Shown: one piece after another, positions 9,905 through 35,296 of the stretch
Position numbering within the stretch: position 1 is the stretch's first letter
Layout of the letters: each line of letters opens with the position of its first letter
From: Thermosipho melanesiensis BI429
Lineage (GTDB): Bacteria; Thermotogota; Thermotogae; Thermotogales; Fervidobacteriaceae
Length of the DNA stretch: 64,000 nucleotides
Direction of reading: 5' to 3'
Assembly (NCBI RefSeq): GCF_000016905.1
Contig: NC_009616.1
Location: forward strand, 1,674,001 to 1,738,000
Program-made: the position numbers and the translations under genes
The notes under the pieces: generated by a model
What the model was told of the DNA's origin: nothing
Database searches by the model: none
What the model saw: the letters and a program-made list of their open reading frames with translations, nothing else

Positions 9905-9912
9905 TTTTTAGG

Positions 9913-10380
9913 GTGTGTTCGCAATATAATATCTTATATGCTTCAACTATTGCAGGTATATCTTTTGATAATGGACTCCTTCATTTTACCCACGCTTTAG
10001 AGCATCCATTAAGCGCCATAAAACCAGATCTGGCACATGGATTAGGTTTAGCAATATTGTTACCTGCTGTAGTAAAGCATATCTATCCAGCTCAATCAGA
10101 GGTATTGGCAGAAATTTATAAACCAATAGTACCTGATCTTAGAGGGATTCCAGGTGAAGCAGAGAAAATAGCAGCTGGTATAGAGAAATGGTTATTCACA
10201 TTGGGAATAACAGAGAAGTTAGAAGATATAGGTTTCAAGGAAAGTGATATTCCACGCTTAGTTGACCTTGCGCTGAATACGCCTTCGCTTGGATTGCTTC
10301 TTAGTATGGCACCAATAAAAGCTACAAAAGAAGTGATTACTCAAATATACAGAGATTCTCTTACATCCATTTCAAAATAG
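9913..10380 (+). pseudogene. C-terminal fragment of an iron-containing alcohol dehydrogenase
   Basis: The frame encodes the C-terminal all-helical domain of a group III Fe-dependent alcohol dehydrogenase. It carries two of the iron-ligand histidines in THALEHPLSA and DLAHGLGLAIL. It has no N-terminal Rossmann part. That part lies on the opposite strand at 19,391-20,155 and ends at the residue before this fragment begins. The first real codons are ILYASTIAG; the few before them come from the rearrangement junction, which contains GCAATATAAT. It is not expected to fold as a working enzyme. Confidence 0.88.
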
Positions 10381-10397
10381 AAAAATTTAAAAAGTCT

Positions 10398-10430
10398 AAA
10401 ACAAACCACCCAGTAATGGGTGGTTTGTTT
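10398..10430. terminator. Bidirectional hairpin terminator
   Basis: A 13-bp perfect stem (AAACAAACCACCC, 10398-10411 region) with loop AGTAAT lies between two converging genes. A/T-rich flanks on both sides make it suitable for both strands. Confidence 0.75.
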
Positions 10431-10448
10431 ATAAATAATATAGTTTGT

Positions 10449-11714
10449 TTAAATAAATATATTGTAAATAAAGCCTATTACAAGAGAAATCAATACAGGT
10501 GTAATCATCCACCTTACAAATTCAATAAAACCAAACTTTCGGTGTATTTGCTTTTCTAGCATATTGACAGCCACTATATTCTGGACTGCACCAAGTGGTG
10601 TTAAATTGGTTACAAAGTTGGCCCCGATAGCAAAGGTCCACCAGAGACTTTGTGAAAAACCACTGGCTACAAGGATTTTTATTACAGGAGCAATTATAAG
10701 AGCCGCCGGAACATTATTTAAAATTGGAACAGTTAAGATAGCCAATCCGTAAATTATCATCATACTCAAAATAGGCATAGACTTTAATGGTAATAAAGTG
10801 TTAGCAATCATTTGAGTTACACCTATTTCTTCAAGTGCATACGACATTATATATAACCCTGCAAAGAAAAACAACATGTCCCAATCGATATGTTCTGCCA
10901 CACTTTCGTAACCATCACTAAAAACAATTATTAAGAATGTTCCTCCAAGTAAGGCAATAACTCCTAATTCTACATTTAAGATGCTGTGTAACATGAATAA
11001 AACGACTGTAATTAAAAATACTACAACAGAAGTGACCATCATCTTTGAATCAGTAATAGCTTTTTTTTCATCAATCTCTTTTAACTTTTCAATATGCTCT
11101 AAAAGTTTCTGATTGACTTTTATACGTCTTTTATAATACATTAAAACTCCGACAAAAGCGAAAATAGCCACAGGTCCCATTTTAACAATAAAATCATTAA
11201 ATGAATATCCACTTATAGAACCTATAACAAGATTCAATGGACTTCCAATAAGCGTTCCTGCTCCTCCAATGTTATCCATAGCCAGAGTCAACATTACAAG
11301 CGGTATTGGACTAAGCTGAAGTATATCAGATATAAGAAAAATCATAGGTGTCATAACAAGTATAGTTACAACATTATCTAAAAACGCAGATGTTAAAGCT
11401 ACGATTATCATTAAAAAACTAAGCGTAAGATAAAATCTTTTTCCACCAATTTTTACCACTCTAATAGAAAAAAATTCAAAAAAACCAGATTTACTAAGAA
11501 AAGCTACAATTATCATCATTCCAGTTAATAAACTCAATGTATCAAAATCAACAATACGGCTTATATTTTCAAATTCTATACCTCTTACAAACTTAAAAGC
11601 AGCAATTACAAGAGCCAAACCAAAAGTAATTGCTGCTTTGTTTTTCCTTCCAAAGATTATAAATCCATACGCTATCGCAACAATCAAGAGTGTAAATACA
11701 CTATCAAGCTGCAT
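10449..11714 (-). CDS. ArsB/NhaD-type ion transporter permease
   Basis: This 421-residue integral membrane protein has about 11-12 hydrophobic segments. It carries the ion-transporter superfamily pattern TSAFLDNVVTILVMTP in the first half and ILNNVPAALIIAP in the second, the paired N-rich hairpins of ArsB/NhaD/SLC13-like carriers. It exports or exchanges an anion or Na+/H+; the substrate cannot be told from sequence. The start at 11714 (MQLDSVF) is chosen because GGGAG lies 8 bp upstream; the longer open frame to 11801 adds an unlikely leader. It is monocistronic and lies inside the inferred inverted segment. Confidence 0.82.
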   Translation of the reverse strand: MQLDSVFTLLIVAIAYGFIIFGRKNKAAITFGLALVIAAFKFVRGIEFENISRIVDFDTLSLLTGMMIIVAFLSKSGFFEFFSIRVVKIGGKRFYLTLSFLMIIVALTSAFLDNVVTILVMTPMIFLISDILQLSPIPLVMLTLAMDNIGGAGTLIGSPLNLVIGSISGYSFNDFIVKMGPVAIFAFVGVLMYYKRRIKVNQKLLEHIEKLKEIDEKKAITDSKMMVTSVVVFLITVVLFMLHSILNVELGVIALLGGTFLIIVFSDGYESVAEHIDWDMLFFFAGLYIMSYALEEIGVTQMIANTLLPLKSMPILSMMIIYGLAILTVPILNNVPAALIIAPVIKILVASGFSQSLWWTFAIGANFVTNLTPLGAVQNIVAVNMLEKQIHRKFGFIEFVRWMITPVLISLVIGFIYNIFI

Positions 11715-11963
11715 TACATCATCTCCCAATTGTAATGTATTCGGTTGTTTTTCTCTAATTAAGTGTGTGCTATATACTATATAATACCACTTTTGATACA
11801 ACTAAAATATTTCTTGTGTAACATTTACAAAACATATACCAAAATTTCTCAAAAATAGACAAACAAACAAATCTTTACAAATTTTCAACACGTAATTATA
11901 TTCAATCTGTTAAAATGGATATAATATGTCAACATTAGAAAAAATATTTCAGGAGGTGTTCTC

Positions 11964-12233
11964 ATGAAAATACTGTATTTTAAAAACGATACTTGCTCTG
12001 TTTGCAAAGCCATCTTTCCAAAAATCGGAAATATTGCAAAACAATATGATGTAAATTTGGAGGTTATTGACGTTGTCAAGAACCCAGAAGTTGCAGGACA
12101 AAAATTAATATTTACAGTACCAACTATAGTTTTCCTTGAAAAAGGCATTGAACTGAAAAGATTCTCAAGAAATTTCAGTATTCTAGAAGTACAAGATTTT
12201 ATTGAAAGATATAACAAAATTATGTCGAAATAA
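11964..12233 (+). CDS. Thioredoxin-like small redox protein
   Basis: This 89-residue thioredoxin-fold protein has the active-site motif CSVC near residues 12-15 and the cis-Pro region TVPTIVF. It is cytoplasmic, with no leader. It probably acts as a thiol-disulfide oxidoreductase on unknown partners. The start follows AGGAGGTG with ideal spacing. A possible TATAAT box lies at about 11,923 upstream. It ends just before a GC-rich hairpin terminator. Confidence 0.8.
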   Translation: MKILYFKNDTCSVCKAIFPKIGNIAKQYDVNLEVIDVVKNPEVAGQKLIFTVPTIVFLEKGIELKRFSRNFSILEVQDFIERYNKIMSK

Positions 12234-12242
12234 AAAATAGTA

Positions 12243-12258
12243 GGGGGCACTTGCCCCC
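12243..12258. terminator. GC hairpin terminator between converging genes
   Basis: GGGGGC, loop ACTT, GCCCCC. T-rich sequence follows on the - strand (CTACTATTTTTTATTT) and on the + strand further down. It can end both the thioredoxin-like gene (+) and the copy A transporter operon (-). Confidence 0.7.
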
Positions 12259-12310
12259 AAGAGTTACTCTTATTCTATTTTATTTTTTAGTTGCTTATCT
12301 TAGTTGTTTA

Positions 12311-13606
12311 TCAAAGAATATTTTTAATAATTTTTTCCAGGCTTTCAAGACTGTAATACTTTTTCCCTATCTCAAAATTTTTATTTACTGTATATTCATA
12401 AGATTCTTTGTCAAATAATATTTTGAAAAGTTTATCTGCTGCTTTTTCTATAATATCTTCTTCTACCTTTACAATATTTTCTAACAATTTATAACTGTTT
12501 CCAAGACTTACATATTCAATACCAGATGGCTTTATATCTTTTTCAAAAACTTCGTATTCGAAAAGTACTATAGGTTTTTTTGCTACAATAGCCTCTAAGA
12601 GCTGATTACCCCATCCTTCAAGAATAGATGGATAGGTTATCGCGTCTGCAATGCTGTAAAGATCCCAAAAGCTCCATACCTTATTTTCTACATTTGGATA
12701 TAAATCTATGGTTCTAATTCCATATTTAAAAGCTTTATCTAAAAGTTTATATTTGTACATATCATCTTCACACATTCCAGAAAAAGCAAGAACTATTTCT
12801 CCTGTAAATTTTTCACCGTTATAAAGTAACTTCCCAACATAATTCTTTGCCTTTTTTTGCATGTTTGATATGAGATCTATAGCTAATTCTATAGCTTTTC
12901 TTTCAGTAATTCTTGTAGCTTGTAATAGTACAATAGCTCCCGTTGAAATATTATAACTTTCCCTTATTTTTAAATTAGTTTCCTTTTTGACAAAAGCCGG
13001 GGCTTCAAAATCCATGACATTTGGAACAACTACAGAATCAACCTTTTTCCTTGAAAATAGCGCATGTTTTGCAAAAGTGTTTATAACAAGATGTTTTATA
13101 TTTTCAGCTGTTGGAGGACAATATTCTTTAAGGAGTTCTATAATCTTTGAAGTAGTAGCATTTAAAAAATATTTCCTTTCCCACCAAAAATCATGATGAT
13201 GTCCTATAAAAACTTTATTTGCGTTGTTTTTTGCATACTTAGTAAAGGCTATAGCAGACGGTAAAAACGCTCCAATTGACCAAATATTATTTGGGATTAT
13301 CACATCGTATTTTTCAAAGATTGGTTCAATGTCAATGTATATTTTTTCGCTCTCTTTAAATATTTCATTAATTAATTCGTCTGGTGTAAAATTTTCAAGT
13401 TTTTCAAACGCATTTCTATTGATAATCTCATACTTTGGATTTTCGAAACCTATAGATTGAATCTGTATATCTACTCCTTTTTCATTGTTCCCGGCCACTA
13501 TATCAACATTGTGTCCGAGTTTGTTTAATACTTTTTTCCATTTTTCCATCTCAAGTGAAACACCATCCATTAGCCCTGCTCGATAATGCACAAGTGCAAT
13601 GTTCAT
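12311..13606 (-). CDS. GT4-family glycosyltransferase, copy A
   Basis: This 431-residue retaining glycosyltransferase has a GT-B fold. The N-terminal domain contains HYRAGLMDG near the start and the unusual stretch GHHHDFWWERKYF. The C-terminal donor-sugar domain has YPSILEGWGNQLLEA, the E-x7-E region of GT4 enzymes. It is cytoplasmic and presumably transfers a sugar onto an acceptor linked to the substrate of the adjacent transporter; donor and acceptor are unknown. The ATG overlaps the ATPase stop. The close paralogue is at 28,886-30,187. Confidence 0.85.
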   Translation of the reverse strand: MNIALVHYRAGLMDGVSLEMEKWKKVLNKLGHNVDIVAGNNEKGVDIQIQSIGFENPKYEIINRNAFEKLENFTPDELINEIFKESEKIYIDIEPIFEKYDVIIPNNIWSIGAFLPSAIAFTKYAKNNANKVFIGHHHDFWWERKYFLNATTSKIIELLKEYCPPTAENIKHLVINTFAKHALFSRKKVDSVVVPNVMDFEAPAFVKKETNLKIRESYNISTGAIVLLQATRITERKAIELAIDLISNMQKKAKNYVGKLLYNGEKFTGEIVLAFSGMCEDDMYKYKLLDKAFKYGIRTIDLYPNVENKVWSFWDLYSIADAITYPSILEGWGNQLLEAIVAKKPIVLFEYEVFEKDIKPSGIEYVSLGNSYKLLENIVKVEEDIIEKAADKLFKILFDKESYEYTVNKNFEIGKKYYSLESLEKIIKNIL

Positions 13607-14703
13607 AAGCTCATCTCCAATCTTTTTTTAGTATCAATATCAAATAACATTATACGTTCATAATCGAGTGTTACGTGAATTACTTCATCAGCATTATATT
13701 TTGGAAAAGCAGGCGATACAATTTTTACAATTTGCTCACCAAGTTCAATAGCTATTATCTGGTGAGAACCTTGTGGTTCAACAACTAATATTTTTTCTGT
13801 GAAAATTGCTTCAGACTTATTATCTGTGATCTTTAAATTCTCTGGTCTTATTCCAACAATCAAATGAGACTTACCATATTTTTCAATAATCTTGTTTAAT
13901 TTTTCAATAACAGGTATTGAAATGTACCGATTTTCTAAATATAATTTTTGATTTTTTTGAACTACCTCCATTTCAAAAAAGTTAGTTGGTGGTGTTCCGA
14001 TAAAACCAGCAACAAAAACATTCGCACTATTGAAATAAACATCATCTGGTGTTCCTACTTGTTCAATGTGACCATCTTTCATAACAACAATTCTATCTGC
14101 CATAGACATTGCTTCAGATTGATCATGCGTAACAAATATTGTAGTAGCACCTGTTTTATGATGAATAGCCTTAAGTTCTGTCCGCATTTTTACTCTCAAT
14201 TTCGCATCAAGATTAGACAAAGGTTCGTCCATAAGAAAGATTTTAGGTTTTACAGCAAGCGCTCTTGCAAGAGCAACTCTTTGTCTTTGCCCTCCAGAAA
14301 GTTGAGATGGATACCTACTTAAATATTCTTCTATTTTAACCATTTGTGAGACTTCGTGAACAGTTTCATCAATCTCATTTTCAGGCAATTTTCTGAGTTT
14401 CAAAGGAAATGCTATATTTTCATAAACCGTCATATGCGGCCACACAGCATAACTTTGAAACACCATACTAACTTCCCTTTTTCGCGGTTCTAAATAAGTT
14501 ACATCCTGGTTGTCAATCAAAATCCTTCCTTCTGTTACTTCTTCCAACCCTGCAATCATCCTTAACGTTGTTGTTTTTCCACATCCAGAAGGGCCTAAAA
14601 GAACTATAAACTCTCCATCGTTAACTTTCAAATTAACATCTTTTGCTCCCCATACTTTTTTACCGTATCTTTTTGAAAGATTTATAAGCTCAAGTGTCGC
14701 CAT
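13603..14703 (-). CDS. Sugar ABC transporter ATPase (MalK/UgpC type), copy A
   Basis: This 366-residue ATPase has Walker A GPSGCGKT (residues 37-44), Q-loop MVFQSYAVWP, signature LSGGQRQRVALARAL, Walker B FLMDEPLSNLD and the switch His in VTHDQSEAM. A C-terminal TOBE/MalK regulatory domain follows, including VGIRPENL. It energises uptake through the two permeases encoded upstream. It is complete and near-identical in its core to copy B at 27,789-28,886. It overlaps the glycosyltransferase gene by 4 bp. Confidence 0.93.
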   Translation of the reverse strand: MATLELINLSKRYGKKVWGAKDVNLKVNDGEFIVLLGPSGCGKTTTLRMIAGLEEVTEGRILIDNQDVTYLEPRKREVSMVFQSYAVWPHMTVYENIAFPLKLRKLPENEIDETVHEVSQMVKIEEYLSRYPSQLSGGQRQRVALARALAVKPKIFLMDEPLSNLDAKLRVKMRTELKAIHHKTGATTIFVTHDQSEAMSMADRIVVMKDGHIEQVGTPDDVYFNSANVFVAGFIGTPPTNFFEMEVVQKNQKLYLENRYISIPVIEKLNKIIEKYGKSHLIVGIRPENLKITDNKSEAIFTEKILVVEPQGSHQIIAIELGEQIVKIVSPAFPKYNADEVIHVTLDYERIMLFDIDTKKRLEMSL

Positions 14704-14747
14704 ATTTCACCGCTCCTTTTATCATTATTTTTTAACATTATTTGAGA

Positions 14748-16028
14748 TTAAACACGTACTCCGCCCCACATTTGAAGAATATATTTTCTTATTATCATAG
14801 TAAATACTACAGCAGGTAACGCTAACGCCACACCACCTGCAGCTGTAAGGTTAATTAAACCTTTTGCACCAACAAGCGTTTGATATACCACAACTGGAAA
14901 CGTTGGGTTAAATTGTGTCAAAACTATTGCCTGGGCAGTTTCAGCCCAACTTCCAATGAAAGCATACATTGCACTTGCAGCAAGTCCAGGTAATGCAAGA
15001 GGCAATGTTACCTTAAAAAACGCGCCACGTCTTGTAGTTCCAAATATCATAGCTGCTTCCTCTAATTCTACAGGAATTCCCATAAATATGCTTGCAGTTA
15101 TCCAGACTGTCATACCAATTTGGCCAACAGAATACACCAAAGATAATCCTATTGGTTTATCGTAAAATCCCATATTTATAAGTATTATAACCATAGGCAT
15201 TGCTATTGAAATTCCTGGAAACATTCTTACAAAAAGAACACTTAATTTCAATAAATTTTTCCCTCTGAAAGAATATCTCGCAAATGCATAACCTGCCATT
15301 CCTCCTATACTAAGCGAAATAACAACAGTTAAAATTGCAACCTCTATACTTCTAATTAAAGCAGGTAAAGCATCACTTGTAACTCTGAAAAAATTTATAT
15401 AATTATCAAAAATATTTTTGGCTACATTAAAATGAACAGCTCCAATTTCATCTAACTCTTTTATTACCTTTTCTAAATCTTTTTCAAACTCACTTTTTTT
15501 CTGTTCATTACTTTCTATCTGTTTTTTAATCATATCTATAAATTCTTGCATATTAGCTTTTTCAGCTATTTCCAACTGACTTTTAAGTCTCACCGTTTCA
15601 ACAGTTAATCTATTAATTTGCCTTTTTATTTTGTCCCTTTCGCTTCTTAATAATTCAATTTTATCTTTGTTTTCCAAAATTAATTGTTTTAACTTTTTTA
15701 CTTGAGCCTCAAATAACTCCTTTTTTATTGTTGAATTAGTTTTGTTACGTACAAATTTTTGGATATCTTCAAAACTCGAAGACTGTTTTATAGTAACATA
15801 ACTTTTTTTTGCAGCACTGTACACACTTATTAAAAATTCGTTGTCTATCATTTCCAACTTAAACTTATTAAAAAAGCTCGGAATCATTTGAGTAGGCCAG
15901 TCATATGCTTCTTGATCAGACATAAAGGAGATAGTTACAAGAAAATAAATTGGCGTAAGAATCACCAACACAATACTAGCAACAACTATATAAAAAAGTG
16001 TTTGCTTTATTATCTTTGCAACTTTCAT
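14748..16028 (-). CDS. ABC sugar permease, MalG type, with a coiled-coil insertion, copy A
   Basis: This 426-residue inner-membrane permease has a first membrane helix at about residues 12-35 and a cluster of five helices from about residue 225. The EAA loop ELEEAAMIFGTTRRGAFFKV contacts the ATPase. Between the first two helices lies an insertion of about 150 residues, Lys/Glu-rich with heptad-like spacing (about 60-215). It is expected to project outside the membrane. MalG proteins are usually about 280 residues. The insertion has diverged far more from copy B than the membrane part. It overlaps the MalF-type gene by 1 bp. Confidence 0.9.
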   Translation of the reverse strand: MKVAKIIKQTLFYIVVASIVLVILTPIYFLVTISFMSDQEAYDWPTQMIPSFFNKFKLEMIDNEFLISVYSAAKKSYVTIKQSSSFEDIQKFVRNKTNSTIKKELFEAQVKKLKQLILENKDKIELLRSERDKIKRQINRLTVETVRLKSQLEIAEKANMQEFIDMIKKQIESNEQKKSEFEKDLEKVIKELDEIGAVHFNVAKNIFDNYINFFRVTSDALPALIRSIEVAILTVVISLSIGGMAGYAFARYSFRGKNLLKLSVLFVRMFPGISIAMPMVIILINMGFYDKPIGLSLVYSVGQIGMTVWITASIFMGIPVELEEAAMIFGTTRRGAFFKVTLPLALPGLAASAMYAFIGSWAETAQAIVLTQFNPTFPVVVYQTLVGAKGLINLTAAGGVALALPAVVFTMIIRKYILQMWGGVRV

Positions 16029-16897
16029 TATTGTTCCCCCTTCTCAAATGCACCAGACACTTTTAAATAAATCACAGAAACAATAGATACAATTATCGAA
16101 ACTATAACAGAGTAAGCTAACGCCACTCGATAAAATCCTAATAATTGCTCTTCATAAAATACTACCTCTTCAAGAAGAACAGGAATTCTTCTATAACCAA
16201 ATATCATAACTATTATTAACCAAACCTGAATAGCTGAAATAATTCTTAATATCAGTGCTGTTTGAATACTCGGCTTGAGCATAGGCAAGGTTATTTTTCT
16301 AAGTACTGTAAATTTTGTTCCACCGAATATATATCCAGCTTCAATTGCTTCTTTCGAAAGACCTTGAAGTCCAGCAAGAAGAATAACCATCATAAAAGGA
16401 ATAACTTGCCACGCATCAATAAGAATTATAAGCATCAACGACTGAAAATCACTTCCTGCAAGAAAAACTATTTTATTATCAGCAGATATAAGCCCTAAAT
16501 GATAAAGCAGACTATTTACCCAACCATACGTTGCAAAACCACTTGACCACATAGCACCTACGGCGACTGCAGGAAGCGCCATAGGAATTAACGCAATTGA
16601 CAATAACAACTGAGCACCTTTAAATTTTTTGTTTATAATCAGCGCAAGACCCAGCGCCACCAAAAATTCAAGTGTAACTGAAATGACAACAAAAATCGCT
16701 GTATTTATAACAGCTTTTTTAAAGTTAGGATCTCTAAATATAGTTAAATAATTATTCAAAGTAAATATATTACTTTCATCAAAAAAACTGTAAACTACTG
16801 CTGAAATAACAGGCCTAAGCCAGAAGATTATATAATAAATGATAGTTGGAGCAATCAAAATGTAAGGTATCCATTTTTTAGTTTCCGCATTATTCAA
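16028..16897 (-). CDS. ABC sugar permease, MalF type, copy A
   Basis: This 289-residue permease has six predicted membrane helices and the EAA motif EAGYIFGGTKFTVLRKITLP, which couples to the ATPase. The start codon is TTG at 16897, with AGGTGG upstream; copy B also starts with TTG, supporting the choice. It forms the transmembrane channel with the MalG-type partner. It follows the binding-protein gene after a GC hairpin. Confidence 0.92.
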   Translation of the reverse strand: MNNAETKKWIPYILIAPTIIYYIIFWLRPVISAVVYSFFDESNIFTLNNYLTIFRDPNFKKAVINTAIFVVISVTLEFLVALGLALIINKKFKGAQLLLSIALIPMALPAVAVGAMWSSGFATYGWVNSLLYHLGLISADNKIVFLAGSDFQSLMLIILIDAWQVIPFMMVILLAGLQGLSKEAIEAGYIFGGTKFTVLRKITLPMLKPSIQTALILRIISAIQVWLIIVMIFGYRRIPVLLEEVVFYEEQLLGFYRVALAYSVIVSIIVSIVSVIYLKVSGAFEKGEQ

Positions 16898-16946
16898 AGG
16901 CAGTCACCACCTCTATTTATAATTGCTCTTCTCTTTTTAAAATAAA

Positions 16947-16961
16947 GGGGGCAACGCCCCC
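16947..16961 (-). terminator. Intercistronic GC hairpin after the binding-protein gene, copy A
   Basis: GGGGGC, loop AAC, GCCCCC, followed on the - strand by TTTATTTT. Copy B has an equivalent hairpin in the same place. Such hairpins often act as a partial terminator or 3' stabiliser that raises binding-protein mRNA over permease mRNA. Confidence 0.65.
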
Positions 16962-16971
16962 TTAAAATTTA

Positions 16972-18180
16972 TTATTTTTTGAGGCTGTTAATTTTTATCT
17001 GGTAGAATTCAAGAAGATCAGGCTCGAATCTTTTATCTTGAAGAATCATTTTCTTGAATATTTCATCATAAACAAGTTTCACCTGTCCCCAATCTTTCCA
17101 TGTAGGTGCGATATAAGACAAGACACCTTCTTTTAATACTTTAATAGCATTCTTTACAACTTGATCTTCTATATCATCACCAAGATAGTTAATTGCTTCA
17201 TCAACAGGTGGGATAAATCCTCCAGTACCCTTGTGTGATTTCAAAATTATATCTGGTCTTGTCATGTATTCAAGGAACTTAAGAGCAAGGTCAAAGTGTT
17301 TTGTACCTTTGACAATGGCAAGTCCACTTGTTCCGGCAACTGAACCTCTTCCAGCTGGTCCTTTTGGTGCAGGAGCAATGATAAACTGTGTTGGATTGCT
17401 CTTGTACACTTCTCCCACACGAGCAGAATGAGCAACTGTCATCCATGTTTCTTCTCTTTTCATAGGTGGTCTTGTATCATCATATGTTTGAACCGCTGGA
17501 GCAAATGCATCTTTCATCTTATAAACAAGATACCATGCTGCAACAGCTCCAGGATTATCAAGATTTGGCCAGTTGCCCCCATAAGATAATGTTATTGCAC
17601 CAATTTGGTAAATAAGAGATTTCATCGGAACACCTGTAACAGCGAATTTACCTTCGCCCTCACCTTGAGCTACAAGATTTGCCCACTCAGCTAACTGCTC
17701 CCATGTAATATTTTCTATGTCTACATCTTCTGGTTTATATTGTAAAGCTTTTTTGTTGATTAATGTTAAATAAACATCTGCGCCAACTGGTAAGAAATAC
17801 CTCTTTCCATCAAATACTGTCATTGTGTCAAAACCTTTTGAGAAAGTTCTATCTGTTCATTTAGAAACATATGGAGTAAGATCGACTACATAACCTTTTT
17901 CAACCCATTCTGGCATTTTTGAAGCATAAACTATTACAACATCTGTTGTAATTTTTCCTGTCTGCTCCTGAACAGCTACTTGTTTTAAAATAGACTCATC
18001 ATCCATTGTCTGGAATACAACTTTTACGTTGTACATTTCCTCAAATGGTTTAATGATCTCGTTGATAATAAACTCCTTTTCTGTTGGCGGTGTCCAAAGC
18101 CTTGAAGTAACAACCAACGTTTCTACACTAAAAGCAAAAACAATCGTTAAAATAAACAATGCAATAAGTACCTTACGCAT
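16972..18180 (-). pseudogene. Sugar ABC solute-binding protein, copy A, interrupted by a nonsense codon
   Basis: The full frame would encode a 402-residue family 1 binding protein with a signal peptide (MRKVLIALFILTIVFAFS). It matches copy B (24,350-25,558) along its length. At 17,857-17,859 an in-frame TGA replaces the TGG of copy B, in the context TPYVSK-stop-TDR versus TPYVSKWTDR. Both flanking parts are otherwise open and highly conserved, so this is a single-base lesion or a sequencing error. The first 107 residues alone cannot bind ligand. Confidence 0.85.
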
Positions 18181-18253
18181 AACCCCACCTCCTTTTTAGA
18201 ATAAAACTCAGAATGCCAGAAAAATAATCGTCCGTGGTAATATTATCATAAAA

Positions 18254-18267
18254 TGTAAGCGTTTACA
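18254..18267. promoter_or_regulatory. LacI-family (cre-like) operator, copy A
   Basis: TGTAAGCGTTTACA fits the TGNAANCGNNNNCA type of operator used by LacI/CcpA-like repressors, with a central CG. It lies between the divergent binding-protein gene and the 2H gene. Copy B carries a different but related operator in the corresponding place. No regulator gene is present in the window. Confidence 0.65.
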
Positions 18268-18347
18268 AAATTAGATTAATTTAAAATATTTCGAATTATA
18301 TGTTATTATTTTTTATGAATAAAAAAAACTTACCAGGAGGTGATATA

Positions 18348-19040
18348 ATGAATTTATCAAAATATATAAACAATTTAAAAGAATATCGCGAAGAAAGCTT
18401 TAGATTGCTTGAAAAAGAGTGGAACCCAAAAAAAGAATTGTTTGAAAAAGTAGACGAAAATGGGAACTATAAAAAATTTGAAGGAGACACAATAGTATTT
18501 ACACTTGATAAAAGTGATATTGAAAAAGTAAGTAATGTTCAAAAAGCTCTTTATTCAAAACTTCACAATCTTTTAGCACGTCCACTGAGCATGCAATATT
18601 TTCACATGACACTTCATGATCTTTGCAATTTCACCACTACAAATGATATACAAGGTTGTATAGAAAAAAATAAAAAGATAATACCATCTATATTTAAAAA
18701 ACTCCCAAAACACGACGTCATAAAAATGAAAAGCATAGGACTGTATAATGGTGGCTCTGCTATTGGAATTATGTTTGCACCAGTTGATGAAAAAATAAAC
18801 ACACTATTCAACATAAGAAAACTGTTTGATAGCATAATAGAACAAAAAGAAATGTATATTCCACATGTAACTTTAGGTTACTATTTGCCACATGAATATT
18901 CTGACCTCGAACGCAAAAAACTTCTTTCTGTTTTAGTAAATACAAAAGTCCAAATAGAAATTTCTTTAAAGCTCTCTAAATTAACTTATCAAATATTTTA
19001 TGACATGGATCATTATGAAAACGTTTACAACAATCAATAA
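18348..19040 (+). CDS. 2H phosphoesterase superfamily protein, copy A
   Basis: This 230-residue protein carries two HxT motifs, HMTLHD at H86 and HVTLGYY at H173. That is the pair defining 2H phosphodiesterases such as 2',5' RNA ligases and cyclic-nucleotide phosphodiesterases. It acts on 2',3'- or cyclic phosphodiester bonds, substrate unknown. The start at 18348 is set by AGGAGGTG and gives the same length as copy B; the open frame to 18300 is not used. It is divergent from the transporter operon in both copies. Confidence 0.8.
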   Translation: MNLSKYINNLKEYREESFRLLEKEWNPKKELFEKVDENGNYKKFEGDTIVFTLDKSDIEKVSNVQKALYSKLHNLLARPLSMQYFHMTLHDLCNFTTTNDIQGCIEKNKKIIPSIFKKLPKHDVIKMKSIGLYNGGSAIGIMFAPVDEKINTLFNIRKLFDSIIEQKEMYIPHVTLGYYLPHEYSDLERKKLLSVLVNTKVQIEISLKLSKLTYQIFYDMDHYENVYNNQ

Positions 19041-19181
19041 ATAACTTTGTGCTATTTCTTTTCTAAAAAATTTATTTGTAAGTTTTTGGAATCGATTCCG
19101 AAATATGGTTCCAAACATTAAATCCCAACAAATTCCTGCTTAATTATTTAAAAAATCCAAAAAACACCAGTAAAAATAGTA

Positions 19182-19386
19182 CGTAAAACGAAATACGCTT
19201 TAAAATCGATTATAAACCCCTTCAAGAATGACAGTATATATTATTAAGCACAAAGAGGGAACAAAAAGCTTCAAAAAGGCATTTAAAACGCCAAGTGTCA
19301 GAAAAGCTGATAAAATAAAGTTTTTTTAAAAGCTCAAAATGCTCTTTTTCAAGATTTTTTCTCTGAAATTTTTATATGCAATATAA
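19182..19386. repeat. Intergenic tract with repeat-like ends next to the split dehydrogenase
   Basis: Bases 19,041-19,390 carry no gene. The tract from CGTAAAACGAA (19,182) to TGCAATATAA (19,377-19,386) has, on the - strand, the same terminal motifs as the 300-bp repeats at 22,846-23,145 and 34,983-35,280. It is shorter and its interior is only weakly similar. The TGCAATATAA end abuts the broken end of the dehydrogenase fragment. Confidence 0.4.
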
Positions 19387-19390
19387 TTAG

Positions 19391-20155
19391 TTAATATCTG
19401 GCAAAAAGGTCATCAGGATGCGCAAGTGCCTGAGGAAGATATTTAGTTATAAGTCTTATTGTTTCTTTTGCAAGGAGAATCGAATATGGACTTGCAACTA
19501 AAGTTGTTGCAGCTTCAGTTACATGATTGATTGCATCTATAGAAGTAAATTTTGTTTGATTATATGGCAATGTTTTCATCAACTGAGGATCGTCAATTGC
19601 GAACATGGGATAAATACAATCATATGCAATAGCTGGTTTATAATGTTTGTCTAATATTGAAGCTACAGCAAATCTATCAACTTCTGTACCAGTTCCGTGA
19701 GTTGTGTTGATTGCAATTATGGGAACTGCTTTTTCTGGTATAAATTTTTGTTCATAAAGTTCTGTAGCATTTTTATCTTTATATTCAATAAGTATTGCTA
19801 CGCTTTTTGCTACATCTATTGGACTTCCTCCTCCAATGCCAATCACTGCAGTGGCTCCAAATTCTTTACCTATTTTGGTTGCTTCATCTATTTGTTCAAC
19901 AGTTGGATTTGGAGTAACTTTTGTATAAATAATATAGTCAATTCCCTTTTCCACAAATACAGGTTCAATAGCTTCCCAGGCACCTGTAACTTTGTAAGCA
20001 ATTTCGTCAGTAATAACAATAACTTTGTTAATTCCTAACCCTTTCAATGCATCTGAAATTTCTTTGATTTTGTTAATGGCTCCAACACCAAAGTAACACG
20101 TAGTTTTACTTCTAAGTTCAAAAACATTATAAATATCTATTTTGTTTTCTATCAT
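19391..20155 (-). pseudogene. N-terminal fragment of the iron-containing alcohol dehydrogenase
   Basis: The fragment encodes the NAD(P)-binding half, with GGGSPID at residues 108-114 and INTTHGTGTEVDRFAV. It then runs into the first iron-ligand region SIDAINHVTEA. It stops after HPDDLFARY, where the intact protein would continue with the sequence found at 9,913-10,380 on the other strand. The start at 20155 is chosen because AGGAGG lies 8 bp upstream. About 255 of roughly 400 residues remain, so the enzyme is disrupted. Confidence 0.9.
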
Positions 20156-20347
20156 GATGCTCACCTCCTGTTATAATGTGAATTTCTTCACATATAATAT
20201 AACATGATTTCTGCATACAATGGTTTCTTAGAAGTTAATATCAGGAAACATAATGTGTATTTTTTCACAAATATAAAATACATAAACATCTTAATATATC
20301 CAATTCCAATATATCTATGATGTATGATTATATGTTAAGTCAGAACG

Positions 20348-20680: not shown

Positions 20681-21393
20681 TTTTGAACCCCCTTTTCTTG
20701 AAAAACTCCTTTTAAAAGATTTTTTCGCTCTTCTTCGGGAAATTTTTCAATAGCATATCGCAACATTGTTCTTGGCATAACTTTGTGATGTTTCTTTAAA
20801 AATTGTAGCTCTAATTCTTTGTTTTTGTCTCCAATTTTTCTTAATGTCCAGCCAACCGCTTTGTGTATTAGATCGTGTTTATGATTAACCAAAATTTCTG
20901 CAATATTAATAGCATCATTGAAATCATTTTGTTTAATAAAATAATGAGTAGATATAATTGCTATTCTTTGTTTCCAAAGGTTCTTTGATTTTGCAAATTC
21001 ATATAAAATGTTTCTGTCTTTGTTTTCTAAGTATTGTCCTAAAATATGTGGAGCTGATGAATCAACTAAGTCCCAGTTGTTTATTTTATCAATATTTCGA
21101 AGGTATATCTCGACAACTTTTTCAGGGTTTTCTTTGAATTTATGTATGAGAATGAAGATCGCAGTTAGACGATGCTCGTGGTATTCTGAGTGTAAAAGTT
21201 TTTCAACTTCTTCAAATGTAAGATCTCGAAACTTTTTTGCTACTTTTCTTTGGTTAGGAACTTGAATACCTAAAAAACGATCACCCTCACCATAACCCCC
21301 AGGGTAAGCTTGAAAAAATTTAGGAAGAAATTTAGCTTTTTCATTATTAATATATTTTTCTAATTCCTTTTTCAACTGCTCAAGTTTTTTCAT
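20677..21393 (-). CDS. AlkD-like DNA alkylation repair protein (HEAT-like repeats)
   Basis: This 238-residue helical protein has the family start GDRFLGIQVPNQRKVAKKF. Repeated helical units follow, including the conserved NNWDLVDSSAPHILG and the C-terminal KHHKVMPRTMLRYAIEKF. AlkD-type enzymes remove bulky or positively charged alkylated purines by wrapping DNA with HEAT-like repeats. It is cytoplasmic. It is followed, with a 4-bp overlap, by the DsrE-like gene. Confidence 0.85.
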   Translation of the reverse strand: MKKLEQLKKELEKYINNEKAKFLPKFFQAYPGGYGEGDRFLGIQVPNQRKVAKKFRDLTFEEVEKLLHSEYHEHRLTAIFILIHKFKENPEKVVEIYLRNIDKINNWDLVDSSAPHILGQYLENKDRNILYEFAKSKNLWKQRIAIISTHYFIKQNDFNDAINIAEILVNHKHDLIHKAVGWTLRKIGDKNKELELQFLKKHHKVMPRTMLRYAIEKFPEEERKNLLKGVFQEKGVQK

Positions 21394-22829: not shown

Positions 22830-23145
22830 TGCAATATAAGGTACATTATATTGCATTATATAAAAAGGAATTTTTTTAAACAAAAAATACTAATTTTCAA
22901 AAATTTATCGAAAATTTGATTAACTCAAAAATTTTATCTTTTTTAATAAAACATGTATTTTTTAAGTAAAAATAGCCAAAATTCTCTTTCTTGCAAAAAC
23001 AAATCTCCATAAACTTTTTATTTATGCAACTTCAAAGGTGTTCTTTTTATTTTAGATTTTAAGAGCTTGTTCTTTTTTATGCTATATATCTTATATATTT
23101 TTATATTTTAAAATAGTCTTATTTTTGAAAATAAAAAGTGGTTCG
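22830..23145. repeat. 300-bp intergenic repeat with terminal palindrome, copy 1
   Basis: The left end is a palindrome of arms TGCAATATAA (22,830-22,839) and TTATATTGCA (22,846-22,855) around 6 bp. From the second arm to GTGGTTCG at 23,138-23,145 is 300 bp. The segment matches 34,983-35,280 in reverse complement: about 65 bp next to the palindrome are almost identical, and patches such as TTTTAAGAGC and AAAATAGCCAAAATTC follow in order. There is no open frame. Bases 23,146-23,384 hold nothing recognised. Confidence 0.75.
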
Positions 23146-24300: not shown

Positions 24301-24349
24301 GTTCTTAAACAAAAAACCATTTTAATTATACCAAAAAGGAGGTGTGGTT

Positions 24350-25558
24350 ATGAAGAAATTTCTTGTTGGGTTGTTAACACTTATTTTCATTGTATCTTTA
24401 GGTGAAACTACACTTGTTGTCAGTTCTAGGCTGTGGACACCACCTACAGAAAAGGAGTTCATAATCAATGAAATAATTAAACCATTTGAAGAAATGTACG
24501 GTGTGAAAGTTGTTTTTCAGACAATGGATGATGAAACTATGCTAAAACAGGTAAAAATTCAAAGTGAAACTGGTAAAGTTACTACTGATGTAATAATTGC
24601 ATATGCAACGAAAATGCCAGAGTGGGTAAAGAATAATTTGGTTTTAGATTTGACCCCATATGTAAGCAAATGGACAGATAGGCACTTCTCAAAAGGTTTT
24701 GATTCTATGACAGTGTTTGATGGAAAAAGATACTTTTTACCAATTGGTGCAGATGTATATTTAACGTTAATTAATAAAAAGGCTTTAAAGTACAAACCTG
24801 AAAATGTTGATATTGAAAATCTTACCTGGGAGCAACTCGCAGAATGGGCAAATTTAGTTGCACAAGGTGAGGGAGAAGGAAAATTTGCAGTTACAGGTGT
24901 CCCAATGAAATCGTTGATTTATCAAGTAGGTGCAATTGCTTTATCATACGGCGCTCATTGGCCAGATTTAGATAATCCAGGTGCAGTTGCCGCTTGGTAT
25001 TTGGTATATAAAATGAAAGATGCATTTTCTCCTGCTGTAAAGACATATGATGATACAAGGCCACCAATGAAAAGGGAAGAAACTTGGATGACAGTTGCTC
25101 ATTGTGCTCGTGTTGGTGAAGTTTACAAAAGCAATCCGACTCAATTTATAATTGCGCCAGCGCCAAAAGGTCCTGCGGGTATTGGCTCAGTAGCAGGAAC
25201 AAGTGGACTTGCAATTGTAAAAGGAACAAAGAATTTTGATCTTGCGCTTAAATTTGTTGAATATATGACAAGACCCGATATAATGGTTAAATCTCATAAA
25301 GGAACTGGAGGTTTTATACCACCTGTTGATGAAGCGGTTAAATATCTCGGTAACGAAGATCAAGATTTGGTTATTAAAAACGCAATTAAAGTTATGAATC
25401 AAGGAGTACTTTCATATATCGCACCTATTTGGAAAGATTGGGGTCAAGTAAAATTAGTATATGATGAATTGTTTGATAAGATGATACTTGTAAAAGAAAC
25501 TTTAGATATTGACATGCTTGAACTATATCAAATGCAAATTGATGCTCAAAGAAAATAA
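24350..25558 (+). CDS. Sugar ABC solute-binding protein, copy B (intact)
   Basis: This 402-residue family 1 solute-binding protein has an N-terminal signal peptide (MKKFLVGLLTLIFIVSLG). The mature part has the usual two-lobe features, including YLTLINKKAL and GTSGLAIVKGTKNFD. It captures the substrate outside the membrane for the MalF/MalG-type permeases. The start at 24350 follows AAAGGAGG; a GTG two codons earlier is not needed. Comparison with copy A shows strong conservation, except for the nonsense codon there. The ligand is not predictable from sequence. Confidence 0.92.
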   Translation: MKKFLVGLLTLIFIVSLGETTLVVSSRLWTPPTEKEFIINEIIKPFEEMYGVKVVFQTMDDETMLKQVKIQSETGKVTTDVIIAYATKMPEWVKNNLVLDLTPYVSKWTDRHFSKGFDSMTVFDGKRYFLPIGADVYLTLINKKALKYKPENVDIENLTWEQLAEWANLVAQGEGEGKFAVTGVPMKSLIYQVGAIALSYGAHWPDLDNPGAVAAWYLVYKMKDAFSPAVKTYDDTRPPMKREETWMTVAHCARVGEVYKSNPTQFIIAPAPKGPAGIGSVAGTSGLAIVKGTKNFDLALKFVEYMTRPDIMVKSHKGTGGFIPPVDEAVKYLGNEDQDLVIKNAIKVMNQGVLSYIAPIWKDWGQVKLVYDELFDKMILVKETLDIDMLELYQMQIDAQRK

Positions 25559-25564
25559 ATTATG

Positions 25565-25583
25565 GGGGGCATAGTTTGCCCCC
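25565..25583 (+). terminator. Intercistronic GC hairpin after the binding-protein gene, copy B
   Basis: GGGGGC, loop ATAGTTT, GCCCCC, then TTACTATT. It sits in the 50-bp gap before the MalF-type gene, at the same place as the copy A hairpin. It is likely a partial terminator or RNA stabiliser. Confidence 0.65.
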
Positions 25584-25608
25584 TTACTATTAAGAGAGGT
25601 GATATAAT

Positions 25609-26478
25609 TTGCAAAAAATTTTATCTAAGAAGATGATTCCATATATTTTAATCACTCCAACTTTGATTTATTATTTAATATTTTGGTTAAGACCTGTGAT
25701 CTCAGCAATCTATTACAGTTTTTTTGATGAAAATAATGTATTTACTTTAAATAACTATGCAATGATTTTTAAAGATCCATATTTTAAAGAAGCATTGATT
25801 AACACAGCTATATTTGTATTGGTTTCCGTTACGCTGGAGTTTGTAATTGCTCTTGGTCTTGCATTAATTATAAACAAAAAATTTAAAGGTGCACAGATAC
25901 TATTATCAATAGCTCTAATTCCAATGGCTTTACCAGCAGTTGCAGTTGGAGCAATGTGGTCAAGTGGTTTTGCAACGTATGGCTGGGTTAACAGCCTTTT
26001 GTATCATTTGGGAATTATTACAGAGAATGGAAAAATTGCATTTCTTGCGGGAAGTGATTTTCAATCATTAATGCTTATTATTTTAATAGACGCGTGGCAA
26101 GTTATACCATTTATGATGGTAATACTCCTTGCAGGACTTCAAGGACTTTCGAAAGATTCTATTGAAGCAGGGTATATATTTGGAGGCACTAAATTTACTG
26201 TTCTAAGAAAAATTACTCTTCCAATGTTAAAACCTAGTATCCAAACTGCTTTAATTTTAAGGATAATTTCTGCTATTCAAGTATGGTTAATAATAGTTAT
26301 GATTTATGGATATAGAAGAATTCCAGTTCTTTTAGAAGAAGTTGTATTTTATGAAGAGCAACTGTTGGGATTCTATAGAGTTGCCCTTGCATATTCTGTC
26401 ATTGTAGCAGCTATTGTTTCAATTGTATCAATAATTTATTTGAAAGTTTCTGGTGCGTTTGAAAAGGGGGAACAATAA
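25609..26478 (+). CDS. ABC sugar permease, MalF type, copy B
   Basis: This 289-residue permease has six hydrophobic helices and the EAA loop EAGYIFGGTKFTVLRKITLP, identical to copy A in this region. It starts at TTG (25609) after GAGAGGTGA. It forms the substrate channel with the following gene, which it overlaps by one base. Confidence 0.92.
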   Translation: MQKILSKKMIPYILITPTLIYYLIFWLRPVISAIYYSFFDENNVFTLNNYAMIFKDPYFKEALINTAIFVLVSVTLEFVIALGLALIINKKFKGAQILLSIALIPMALPAVAVGAMWSSGFATYGWVNSLLYHLGIITENGKIAFLAGSDFQSLMLIILIDAWQVIPFMMVILLAGLQGLSKDSIEAGYIFGGTKFTVLRKITLPMLKPSIQTALILRIISAIQVWLIIVMIYGYRRIPVLLEEVVFYEEQLLGFYRVALAYSVIVAAIVSIVSIIYLKVSGAFEKGEQ

Positions 26479-27758
26479 TGAGAACAAATAAAATATTAAA
26501 ACAAACATTATTTTATTTAGTGGTTGCTGGTATTATCTTAGTTATTATAACACCTATATATTTTTTAGTTGTTATTTCACTAATGTCGGATCAGGAGGCA
26601 TATGATTGGCCAACACAAATTGTTCCATCTTTTTTTAATAAATTTAAATTAGAAATAGTTAACGAAAAATACTTAATGTCTGTCTATAGTAATTCAAAGA
26701 AAAAGTTTATAACTCTAATTGAAACAGAAAACTTTGAAGAATTACAAAAGTTTGTAAGAAACAAAACAAATTCTTATATTAAAATGAAACTTTTTGACAC
26801 TCAGGTCAAAAAATTACAAAAATTAATTGAAAAAAATGCCAAAAAAATAAATGATTTGCGAAATGAAATCGCAACTATTGAGATGAAATTGAATAAAACA
26901 ACTGTTAACTTAGTAAAATACAAAACAAAATTAGAAAAAGCAAAAAAGTTAAATATAGAGTCACTTATACAACCACTTGAAAAAAACATACAAGATTTGG
27001 AAAATAAGAAAAAAAGTTATGAAGCAAAACTCAATAACTTAAAAGATGTACTTGAAAAAATTGGTTCAGTAAAATTTTCAGTAGCAAAAAATTTACTTGA
27101 CAACTATATAAACTTTTTCAAAGTATCTAGTAACGCTTGGCCTGCACTAATGAGGAGTATTCAAGTTGCATTGCTGACAGTTGCAATTTCACTTACCATT
27201 GGAGGAATGGCCGGCTACGCATTTGCAAGATATAATTTCAAAGGTAAAAACTTTTTAAAATTAAGTGTACTTTTTGTAAGGATGTTCCCTGGTATTTCAA
27301 TTGCAATGCCAATGGTTATAATATTAATTAACATGGGGTTTTATGATAAACCCATAGGATTATCTCTCGTCTATTCAGTTGGACAAATCGGTATGACTAT
27401 TTGGATTACGGCAAGTATATTCATGGGAATTTCAACAGAACTTGAAGAGGCTGCGATGATTTTTGGAACAACAAGGATTGGAGCATTTTTCAAAGTCACA
27501 TTACCACTTGCATTTCCAGGCCTTGCTGCAAGTGCAATGTACGCATTTATAGGTAGTTGGTCTGAAACTGCACAAGCTATTGTTTTGACCCAATTTAATC
27601 CGACTTTCCCTGTGGTTGTGTATCAAACACTTGTGGGCGCAAAAGGATTAATCAATTTAACTGCAGCCGGTGGAGTTTCGCTAGCTCTTCCAGCGGTAAT
27701 TTTTACCTTAATAATAAGAAAATACATATTACAAATGTGGGGTGGAGTAAAAGTATAA
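26478..27758 (+). CDS. ABC sugar permease, MalG type, with a coiled-coil insertion, copy B
   Basis: This 426-residue permease has the same architecture as copy A: one membrane helix, an insertion of about 150 Lys/Glu-rich residues, then five helices with the EAA loop ELEEAAMIFGTTRIGAFFKV. The insertion (about residues 60-215) keeps its length in both copies but has a very different sequence, whereas the membrane half is almost the same. It might contact the binding protein, the envelope, or its twin in a dimer. Confidence 0.9.
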   Translation: MRTNKILKQTLFYLVVAGIILVIITPIYFLVVISLMSDQEAYDWPTQIVPSFFNKFKLEIVNEKYLMSVYSNSKKKFITLIETENFEELQKFVRNKTNSYIKMKLFDTQVKKLQKLIEKNAKKINDLRNEIATIEMKLNKTTVNLVKYKTKLEKAKKLNIESLIQPLEKNIQDLENKKKSYEAKLNNLKDVLEKIGSVKFSVAKNLLDNYINFFKVSSNAWPALMRSIQVALLTVAISLTIGGMAGYAFARYNFKGKNFLKLSVLFVRMFPGISIAMPMVIILINMGFYDKPIGLSLVYSVGQIGMTIWITASIFMGISTELEEAAMIFGTTRIGAFFKVTLPLAFPGLAASAMYAFIGSWSETAQAIVLTQFNPTFPVVVYQTLVGAKGLINLTAAGGVSLALPAVIFTLIIRKYILQMWGGVKV

Positions 27759-27788
27759 AAAAAATAAATTTTAAAGGAGAGATGATAT

Positions 27789-28886
27789 ATGGCAACATTA
27801 GAGCTTGTTAATTTATCAAAAAGATATGGAAAAAAGGTTTGGGGTGCAAAAGATGTAAATTTGAAGGTAAATGATGGTGAATTTGTAGTCTTCCTTGGAC
27901 CTTCTGGTTGTGGTAAAACTACAACTTTAAGAATGATAGCAGGTCTTGAAGAGGTAACAGAAGGAAAGGTTATTATTGATGGAAAAGATGTAACATATCT
28001 TGAACCTAGAAAACGTGAAGTTAGTATGGTTTTCCAAAGTTACGCTGTCTGGCCTCACATGACAGTGTATGAAAATATAGCATTTCCATTAAAACTTAAA
28101 AAATTTCCTTCCGAAGAAATAGATAAAATAGTAAGGGAAGTAGCGGAAATGGTTAAAATAGAAGAACTTTTGAAAAGATTTCCATCTCAGCTTTCTGGTG
28201 GTCAAAGACAGCGTGTAGCTTTGGCAAGAGCCCTTGCAGTAAAACCAAAAATATTTTTAATGGATGAACCACTATCTAATCTTGATGCAAAATTGAGAGT
28301 AAAAATGAGAACAGAATTGAAAGCAATTCATCATAAAACTGGTGCTACAACAATATTTGTAACACACGATCAATCAGAAGCTATGTCAATGGCAGATCGC
28401 ATTATCATAATGAAAAATGGGCGGATTGAACAAGTTGGTACACCTGATGATGTCTATTTTAATAGTGCAAATGTGTTTGTCGCTGGTTTTATTGGTACTC
28501 CTCCAACGAATTTCTTTGAAATGGAAGTTGTAAGACAAAGTGGGCGTATTCACTTGAAAAATGAGCATATTGATATACCATTAAATGGTAAAAATGAAAA
28601 AATTGTTGAAAGTTATTCAAAAAATAAAATAATTGTTGGTATAAGGCCGGAAAATTTATTGATTACTAATAATAAGGATAAAGCTATTTTTACAGAAAAA
28701 ATATTAGTTGTAGAACCACAAGGTTCACATCAGATTATAGCCGTTGATCTAGGTGAACAGATAGTAAAAATTGTTGTTCCAGCGTTTCCAAAATATAACC
28801 CTGATGAAATGATAAATGTTACATTTGATAGTGAAAGAATAATGCTGTTTGATATTGAGACTAAAAGCAGGTTGGAGGAATATTAA
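27789..28886 (+). CDS. Sugar ABC transporter ATPase (MalK/UgpC type), copy B
   Basis: This 365-residue ATPase has GPSGCGKT, LSGGQRQRVALARAL, FLMDEPLSNLD and VTHDQSEAM, plus a C-terminal TOBE region with VGIRPENL. It is complete and drives import through the copy B permeases. AAAGGAGAGATG precedes the start. Its stop TAA shares a base with the ATG of the glycosyltransferase gene. The two ATPase copies could probably substitute for each other. Confidence 0.93.
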   Translation: MATLELVNLSKRYGKKVWGAKDVNLKVNDGEFVVFLGPSGCGKTTTLRMIAGLEEVTEGKVIIDGKDVTYLEPRKREVSMVFQSYAVWPHMTVYENIAFPLKLKKFPSEEIDKIVREVAEMVKIEELLKRFPSQLSGGQRQRVALARALAVKPKIFLMDEPLSNLDAKLRVKMRTELKAIHHKTGATTIFVTHDQSEAMSMADRIIIMKNGRIEQVGTPDDVYFNSANVFVAGFIGTPPTNFFEMEVVRQSGRIHLKNEHIDIPLNGKNEKIVESYSKNKIIVGIRPENLLITNNKDKAIFTEKILVVEPQGSHQIIAVDLGEQIVKIVVPAFPKYNPDEMINVTFDSERIMLFDIETKSRLEEY

Positions 28887-30187
28887 TGAAAATAGCACTT
28901 ATACATTATAGAGCAGGATTAATGGATGGCGTTTCACTTGAAATGGAAAAGTGGAAAAAAACTTTACAAAGAATGGGATACGAAGTTGATATAGTTGCTG
29001 GTAATAAAAATGATGTTGTTGATGTTTTAATAACCTCAATTGGTTTTGAAAATCCAAAATTTCGTTTAATAAACAAGAATGCTTTTGAAAAGTTAGAAGA
29101 TTTTTCAATAGATGAATTGGTATCTATAATATATGAAGAAGCTGATCAAATTTATAACGATTTAGAAGATTCTTTAAAAAATTATGATATAATAATCCCT
29201 AACAATATTTGGTCATTGGGTGCATACTTGCCAAACGCTATTGCTCTAACAAGATTTGCTGAAAAACATAAAAATAAGTTATTTATTGGTCATCACCATG
29301 ATTTTTGGTGGGAAAGAAAATATTTCCTGAACTACCAAGATGAAAGAATAAAAAACATATTGGATTATTATTGCCCTCCTTCTTTGGATAATATTAAGCA
29401 TGTGGTAATAAATTCACTTGCCGAGGAAGCTTTATATGCAAAAAAAAGACTAGAAGCAGTCGTTATACCAAATGTTATGGATTTTGAAAATCCTCCGTTT
29501 ATAAGTGATGATATAAATTTAAAGATAAGAGATATGTACAATATTTCTGAAAATTCCATTGTTTTGCTCCAAGCAACTCGAATTACCAAACGAAAAGCTA
29601 TTGAACTTGCAATAGATCTGGTTAATTTTATGTCTAAACTTTCAAAAAATTACAAAAGTAAGGAAATGTATAATGGAAGAATTTTTGATGGAAATATAGT
29701 ATTAGCGTTTTCAGGAATGTGTGAAAGTGAAAGTTACAAGTATAAATTACTGGACAAAGCATTTAATTATGGAATTAGAACCGTTAATCTATATCCAAAT
29801 ATTGAAAAAGGTATTTGGAGTTTTTGGAATCTATATAGTATTGCAGATGCTATAACCTATCCTTCAATTCTAGAAGGATGGGGAAATCAATTGCTTGAGG
29901 CAATAATTGTAAAAAAACCCGTTATTTTGTTTGAATATGAGGTATTTGAAAAGGACATTAAAAACTCCGGTTTGAATTTTATAAGCTTAGGAAATGATTA
30001 TGAAATAAAAGATGGGTTTGTTATAGTTAAAGAAGAAATAACAAAAAAAGCTGCAAAAAAACTACTTGAGATACTATTTAATAAAGAACTGTATAAAAAA
30101 ACAACTACGAGAAATTATGAAATAGGAAAAAAACTGTTTGGATTAGATACACTTTCTGAATTGATTAGAAAGTTAATAGGGCAATAA
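28886..30187 (+). CDS. GT4-family glycosyltransferase, copy B
   Basis: This 433-residue GT-B enzyme is paralogous to the gene at 12,311. Conserved segments are HYRAGLMDGVSLEMEKWKK, GHHHDFWWERKYF, LLQATRITKRKAI and YPSILEGWGNQLLEA. It is the last gene of the copy B operon, ended by a clear terminator. Coupling a sugar importer to a glycosyltransferase suggests conversion of the imported sugar into a glycoside such as a compatible solute or storage compound. That product is inference. Confidence 0.85.
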   Translation: MKIALIHYRAGLMDGVSLEMEKWKKTLQRMGYEVDIVAGNKNDVVDVLITSIGFENPKFRLINKNAFEKLEDFSIDELVSIIYEEADQIYNDLEDSLKNYDIIIPNNIWSLGAYLPNAIALTRFAEKHKNKLFIGHHHDFWWERKYFLNYQDERIKNILDYYCPPSLDNIKHVVINSLAEEALYAKKRLEAVVIPNVMDFENPPFISDDINLKIRDMYNISENSIVLLQATRITKRKAIELAIDLVNFMSKLSKNYKSKEMYNGRIFDGNIVLAFSGMCESESYKYKLLDKAFNYGIRTVNLYPNIEKGIWSFWNLYSIADAITYPSILEGWGNQLLEAIIVKKPVILFEYEVFEKDIKNSGLNFISLGNDYEIKDGFVIVKEEITKKAAKKLLEILFNKELYKKTTTRNYEIGKKLFGLDTLSELIRKLIGQ

Positions 30188-35000: not shown

Positions 35001-35296
35001 CGAAAATAAAGGCATTCAGAAATATTAAGATGTATAAGAAATATATATCCTAAAATATACATTCTAAGAAGAACAGCTCTTAAAAACTGAAAATAAAAAA
35101 ATGGCTTTTAAGAGTTACTAATAAAGGGTTTATGTATGTTTTTTTGTACATAAATAAGGAATTTTAACTATTTTTATTTGGAAAATCCAAGCTTAATAAA
35201 AAACAGGAAAAATTTTGTTGATTTGTTAAAAATTAGTATTTTTTGTTTAAAAAAATTCCTTTTTATATAATGCAATATAATAATTCTTATATTGCA
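34983..35296. repeat. 300-bp intergenic repeat with terminal palindrome, copy 2
   Basis: This is the reverse complement of the segment at 22,830-23,145. It ends with TGCAATATAA (35,271-35,280), 6 bp, and TTATATTGCA (35,287-35,296); the other end is CGAACCAC at 34,983-34,990. Length from the inner arm to the far end is 298 bp, against 300 bp in copy 1. The 6-bp centre (TAATTC) differs from copy 1 (GGTACA). It lies between converging genes and has no open frame. Bases 35,297-35,479 hold nothing recognised. Confidence 0.75.

Follow-up and report, generated by a model that had tools for sequence, protein, structure and literature searches.

The split alcohol dehydrogenase gene and its inverted neighborhood

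The stretch of DNA analyzed here (the window) covers 64,000 bases, 1674001 to 1738000, of the 1,915,238-base, single-contig genome of Thermosipho melanesiensis BI429 (G000). It holds two open reading frames that each encode part of an iron-containing alcohol dehydrogenase (ADH). These were originally called at 9913-10380 (+) for the C-terminal half and 19391-20155 (-) for the N-terminal half. The features that matter to the argument are listed below; the names of the mal-like genes are those that we presume from sequence similarity.

9920..9929, +: left arm of dif3, CGCAATATAA, at junction 1; its left flank matches the flank of a TAACTA site in the relative G002
9930..19393, no strand: inverted segment, 9464 bp, from minus-strand alignment to the relative G007
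9930..10380, +: C-terminal part of the split ADH; begins with the ADH spacer remnant TATCT, coding match from ~9934
10449..11801, -: CitMHS-type transporter gene inside the inverted segment; its orthologue adjoins the intact ADH in G007
12311..18180, -: first of two sugar transport operons of the malE-F-G-K-treT-like type; an in-frame stop breaks malE
18300..19040, +: ligase-like gene without a Pfam hit, the marker for the end of the segment at dif3
19378..19393, +: right arm of dif3 (GCAATATAA on the plus strand), one additional T and the spacer TAGTTA (reverse complement TAACTA), at junction 2
19394..20155, -: N-terminal part of the split ADH, from the open reading frame, a profile match and the G007 alignment
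22831..22854, +: dif1-class palindrome, spacer GGTACA, intact
24344..30187, +: the other sugar transport operon, which lies between dif1 and dif2
35272..35295, +: dif2-class palindrome, spacer TAATTC (reverse complement GAATTA), intact

In a profile search, the N-terminal half matches the Pfam Fe-ADH family, and the ADH_Fe_C profile is shared out between the halves without overlap, positions 4-53 falling in the first and 55-193 in the second. The N-terminal half thus ends where the C-terminal half begins, just as a sequence-only reading of this DNA had proposed. Both domains expected of such an enzyme (PF00465/PF25137) are encoded without frameshift or internal stop, but they are divided over two opposed reading frames ~9 kb apart; in G007, a genome of the same bacterial family, they lie in one protein. 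The metal ligands are presumably divided two per half, the Asp and His of SIDAINH in the N-terminal part and two His in the C-terminal part. The GTG start of the C-terminal half and the TAA stop of the N-terminal half are by-products of the junctions. When the halves are rejoined at the crossover, where the Tyr-Leu codons of relatives were used to impute the six bases in the middle, an open frame results that reads ...PDDLFARYYLLYASTIAG..., to be compared with ...DLTARYYLLYA... in intact relatives.

Elsewhere in the genome, at C1:148574-149785, there is a paralogue of the ADH that is intact (77-78% identity). Lineage-specific amino acid changes number 17 in the N-terminal half against 11 in G007, and 5 against 7 in the C-terminal half. 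This comparison with G007 gives no clear sign of relaxed selection on the halves, and the split therefore looks either recent or partly constrained.

The genome of G007 preserves, on one contig, the ancestral order: a palindrome, the ligase-like gene, malEFGK-treT, the transporter, an intact ADH and a DNA-alkylation-repair gene. Its ADH has 407 amino acids and is 85-86% identical to both halves. In the alignment of the window to G007, positions 9920-12206 and 12313-19041 run on the minus strand; to the right, 19388-20274 and 20691-21399 run on the plus strand. Re-inverting the segment reproduces the G007 order. Even the distances are similar, with breakpoint 2 lying ~340 bp past the ligase-like gene and the G007 palindrome ~290 bp past it. 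The other relatives that were examined have the ADH in different gene neighborhoods, and no relative was found to carry both fragments beside separate full-length genes.

The 9,464-bp inversion is, then, almost certainly real, and the earlier proposal that it cut a single iron ADH gene is borne out. That proposal was also right that re-inversion restores one frame. It had placed the breakpoints at 9912/9913 and 19390/19391; these have to be moved, as the best crossover lies at 9929/9930 and 19393/19394.

Several other observations were made on the segment. The malE gene of the inverted operon (16972-18180, -) contains an in-frame stop and has no internal gap relative to the intact G007 gene; a 283-amino-acid part of it is 98.6% identical to that gene. 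The two mal operon copies stand in opposite orientation, share 71-80% DNA identity, and each adjoin a ligase-like gene and a dif-like site. GC skew at four-fold sites was tried as an independent mark of the flip and proved uninformative, gene strand and segment being confounded.

Dif-like palindromes and the two junctions

Both breakpoints carry GCAATATAAT on the plus strand, at 9921 and 19378, as the sequence-only reading had noted. It had also taken this motif for the end of 300-bp repeats in the window. The motif does occur at repeat ends near 22831 and 35272, but the flanks of the breakpoints are not copies of the repeat, and the repeat is accordingly rejected as a mobile element acting there. 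As a 10-mer, GCAATATAAT is unremarkable (12 matches at one mismatch or fewer, where ~14 are expected). It is, rather than the end of a mobile repeat, one arm of a 24-bp dif-like palindrome, GCAATATAA-N6-TTATATTGC.

Of 45 genomes of the order, 27 contain this palindrome, and control matches were zero in every genome searched. It has the architecture of a dif site, which is intergenic and ~28 bp long, with two 11-bp inverted arms around a 6-bp spacer; most sites read ATGCAATATAA-N6-TTATATTGCAT. A chromosome is expected to have one dif site, of course, and one per genome is what the matched genomes of family f2 and of the Fervidobacterium-like genera g2 and g3 have. The Thermosipho-like genera g1, g4 and g5, in contrast, mostly have two or three, which is why the extra sites are here called dif-like only. 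In the genomes of family f3, no palindrome appears at one mismatch or fewer; a dif site in f3, if any, must therefore have different arms. Judged by sequence, these palindromes would be working dif sites.

The spacers fall into three classes, a grouping made in this analysis. The dif1 class is GGTACA-like and shared with f2, dif2 has GAATTA or GAATGA, and dif3 has TAACTA; dif1 is likely the original site. Each of three relatives of the same genus has three intact sites, while G000 has two together with a broken dif3. The TAACTA site is intact in G001, G002 and G003, and present with one arm mismatch in G006, G010, G012 and G034. At the place in G007 that matches the left breakpoint stands a perfect palindrome, ATGCAATATAA-GAATTA-TTATATTGCAT. 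Just inside dif1 and dif2 lies an inverted pair of ~340-bp repeats, 72% identical (22809-23146, +, and ~34988-35330, -); no further full copy was found in the genome.

The composition of the region suggests a replication terminus. In the stretches sampled, GC skew lies mostly above zero between 0.95 and 1.68 Mb and mostly below it from 1.71 Mb, past the contig end, to 0.29 Mb. Across the window it passes from about +0.3 to -0.3, a change to which gene strand contributes, and it reverses sign near all three sites. The switch at the site is clear in G000 and G007. Skew is higher to the left of the site than to the right in 9 of 10 relatives, weakly so in many of the single-site genomes and with G011 opposite; a one-sided sign test gives ~0.01, for relatives that are not phylogenetically independent. 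These data support, but do not prove, the view that the switch in the window marks the terminus.

What remains of dif3 is divided between the junctions. To the left of 9920, the sequence agrees with that beside the intact dif3 in G002 (85 bp, 83.5%), and breakpoint 2 retains all six bases of the TAACTA spacer. Measured against two intact 6-bp spacers, junction 1 lacks two bases and junction 2 gains one; the exchange is conservative to within 1-2 bases. Relative to the flank common to G002 and G000, the G002 spacer has the opposite orientation. The termini of G001 and G002 (L126 and L129) likewise carry the TAACTA spacer in opposite orientations beside the same right flank. This spacer comes close to being a palindrome, and the site might for that reason be promiscuous as to direction.

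The other partner lies within the ADH gene. The breakpoint there is the best match to the dif3 24-mer in the whole rejoined gene, ranking first of 2384 positions on both strands; the match is only 16 of 24 positions, its outer arms are weak, and its six central bases are imputed in G000. The same position ranks first in the ADHs of G007, G001, G002 and G003, which are intact and needed no imputation; it comes second in G006 and no lower than third in the paralogue of G000 itself. A breakpoint placed at random would have an equally good match within 2 bases at 5 of 1192 positions. In G007, the ADH site is among 5 of 26,534 positions with at least 16 matches, in inverted orientation. The orientation of the ADH look-alike relative to dif3 is the one that yields inversion.

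A probable XerA exchange and its alternatives

A single tyrosine recombinase is found in G000, as the only match to PF00589; its gene, at C1:~181388-182236, adjoins an excinuclease-like reading frame. The protein passes the NCBIfam model for XerA (NF040815) with 249.5 bits against a cut-off of 220, and scores below the cut-offs of the XerC and XerD models. Its closest solved chain is XerA of P. abyssi, an enzyme that cuts at the borders of a 6-nt spacer (PMC3646895). The best-placed exchange in G000 coincides with such a border.

These sequence comparisons suggest that XerA was the agent, and that it probably recombined dif3 with a cryptic dif-like sequence in the ADH gene to produce the inversion. 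Here, the ancestor of the strain would have had three dif-like palindromes in its terminus region. XerA would have paired dif3 (GCAATATAA-TAACTA-TTATATTGC) with GCCAGATAT-TATCTN-TTATATGC, a stretch of the ADH gene that codes for Arg-Tyr-Tyr-Leu-Leu-Tyr-Ala, ~9.5 kb away and in opposite orientation. An exchange close to the left edge of the 6-bp spacer would then have turned the intervening DNA around. Each junction would have retained an arm of dif3, half of the ADH and the spacer of one parent, with the ADH gene cut and dif3 destroyed. The exchange is not perfect to the base (two short, one extra), and this reading therefore has to suppose some slippage afterward. Also counting against it are the modest, partly imputed match of the ADH site, the lower rank of that position in G006 and in the paralogue, the reversed spacer of G002 and the uneven skew of the relatives.

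Palindromes can extrude and break. One might imagine that two double-strand breaks, one in the palindrome (by cruciform cleavage, for example) and one in the ADH gene, were misjoined through short homologies with no recombinase at all. The imperfect junctions would suit this, as would the short stretches that the two sites have in common, such as TTATAT. Joining through TTATAT, the longest of these, predicts the ADH spacer at junction 2, however, and the dif3 spacer is found there. Only 1-2 bases were lost or gained, and the break in the ADH gene fell at its best dif look-alike, although microhomology also favors similar places. This reading is further weakened because no Ku gene was found in G000 or G007. 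End joining therefore seems unlikely, if still the most serious competitor to XerA.

Much less is to be said for recombination or transposition between repeats, whether the 300-bp repeats, the paralogous mal operons or insertion sequences. The window does contain inverted mal operons and the 340-bp inverted pair, but the breakpoints lie outside all of these repeats; homologous recombination between the mal operons is rejected for this reason. The junction flanks have no further copy in the genome except for a 42-bp partial match, and no transposase gene is seen at the junctions. The breakpoint positions have already largely refuted this route, which we regard as very improbable. An assembly error is just as improbable, because the same flanks are single-copy apart from that partial match. 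The mal operons, at their 71-80% identity, are too divergent to be confused, and rearranged parts of dif3 with small changes are not what misjoining is expected to leave.

Gene blocks between the sites and related Xer systems

The blocks between the dif-like sites (the sugar-transport operon with the ligase-like gene, an M20-peptidase block, a restriction block and a conserved right flank) vary in order, orientation and content among related genomes. Blocks bounded by Xer sites and differing in order or orientation, as in dif modules, are seen for the mal operon, the M20 peptidase and the restriction genes in G001, G002, G003, G006, G010 and G034. Flanks also change partners between spacer classes. 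One is found at dif1 in G003 and at dif3 in G006 (177 bp, 76%); a dif2 flank in G034 and G010 matches the one to the right of dif1 in G000. Because flanks reassort in this way, the pattern fits repeated recombination between dif-like sites.

The broader hypothesis, which we would give an even chance, is that the Thermosipho-like terminus is a cassette region driven by XerA. The inherited dif and one or two extra dif-like sites would bound blocks for sugar transport, restriction and peptidase functions. The only recombinase would shuffle, invert and exchange these, and would also hit look-alikes whose use breaks genes.

The split ADH would belong to known Xer/dif biology, rather than to a new kind of system. 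Archaeal XerA/dif (PMC2958812, Cortez 2010; PMC3646895, Serre 2013) likewise has a single XerA-type recombinase and an intergenic, near-perfect 11-6-11 palindrome; its place near the terminus is probably shared as well. Here, however, the host is bacterial (Thermotogales), and Thermosipho-like genomes carry not one site but two or three, whose spacers differ. In Acinetobacter (PMC13141974, PMC12907356), the dif modules found on plasmids and chromosomes are also Xer-site-bounded gene blocks rearranged between relatives, but they rely on two recombinases (XerC/D) and are mostly on plasmids; the present case has one recombinase, symmetric arms, a probable chromosomal terminus and no apparent tie to plasmids. 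It would be the one-recombinase, palindromic counterpart of those modules, with direction and compatibility left to the spacer alone. In Thermococcus, a plasmid integrase provides a tyrosine recombinase of a hyperthermophile that recombines at, and inverts chromosomal DNA between, non-canonical sites (PMC5495485). There, the homologous stretches are longer (~100 bp), whereas here the host XerA would have used a 24-bp look-alike.

In the literature searched, which left most subscription journals outside, no paper was found that links XerA with Thermotogae or that describes inversions in Thermosipho melanesiensis. Neither of two Xer papers contains "Thermotog-" in its main text, and "Thermo-" does not occur in the dif survey of Kono (2011). 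Since no such link was found, a candidate dif site for the Thermotogales would be useful in itself. The case suggests, moreover, that look-alike sites allow the recombinase responsible for sister chromosome separation to rearrange the terminus and to disrupt genes.

One further pair of repeats lies in the window. These are direct and 90% identical (8559-8911 and 30987-31216, ~22.3 kb apart), start in a HepT-like gene and extend beyond its end.
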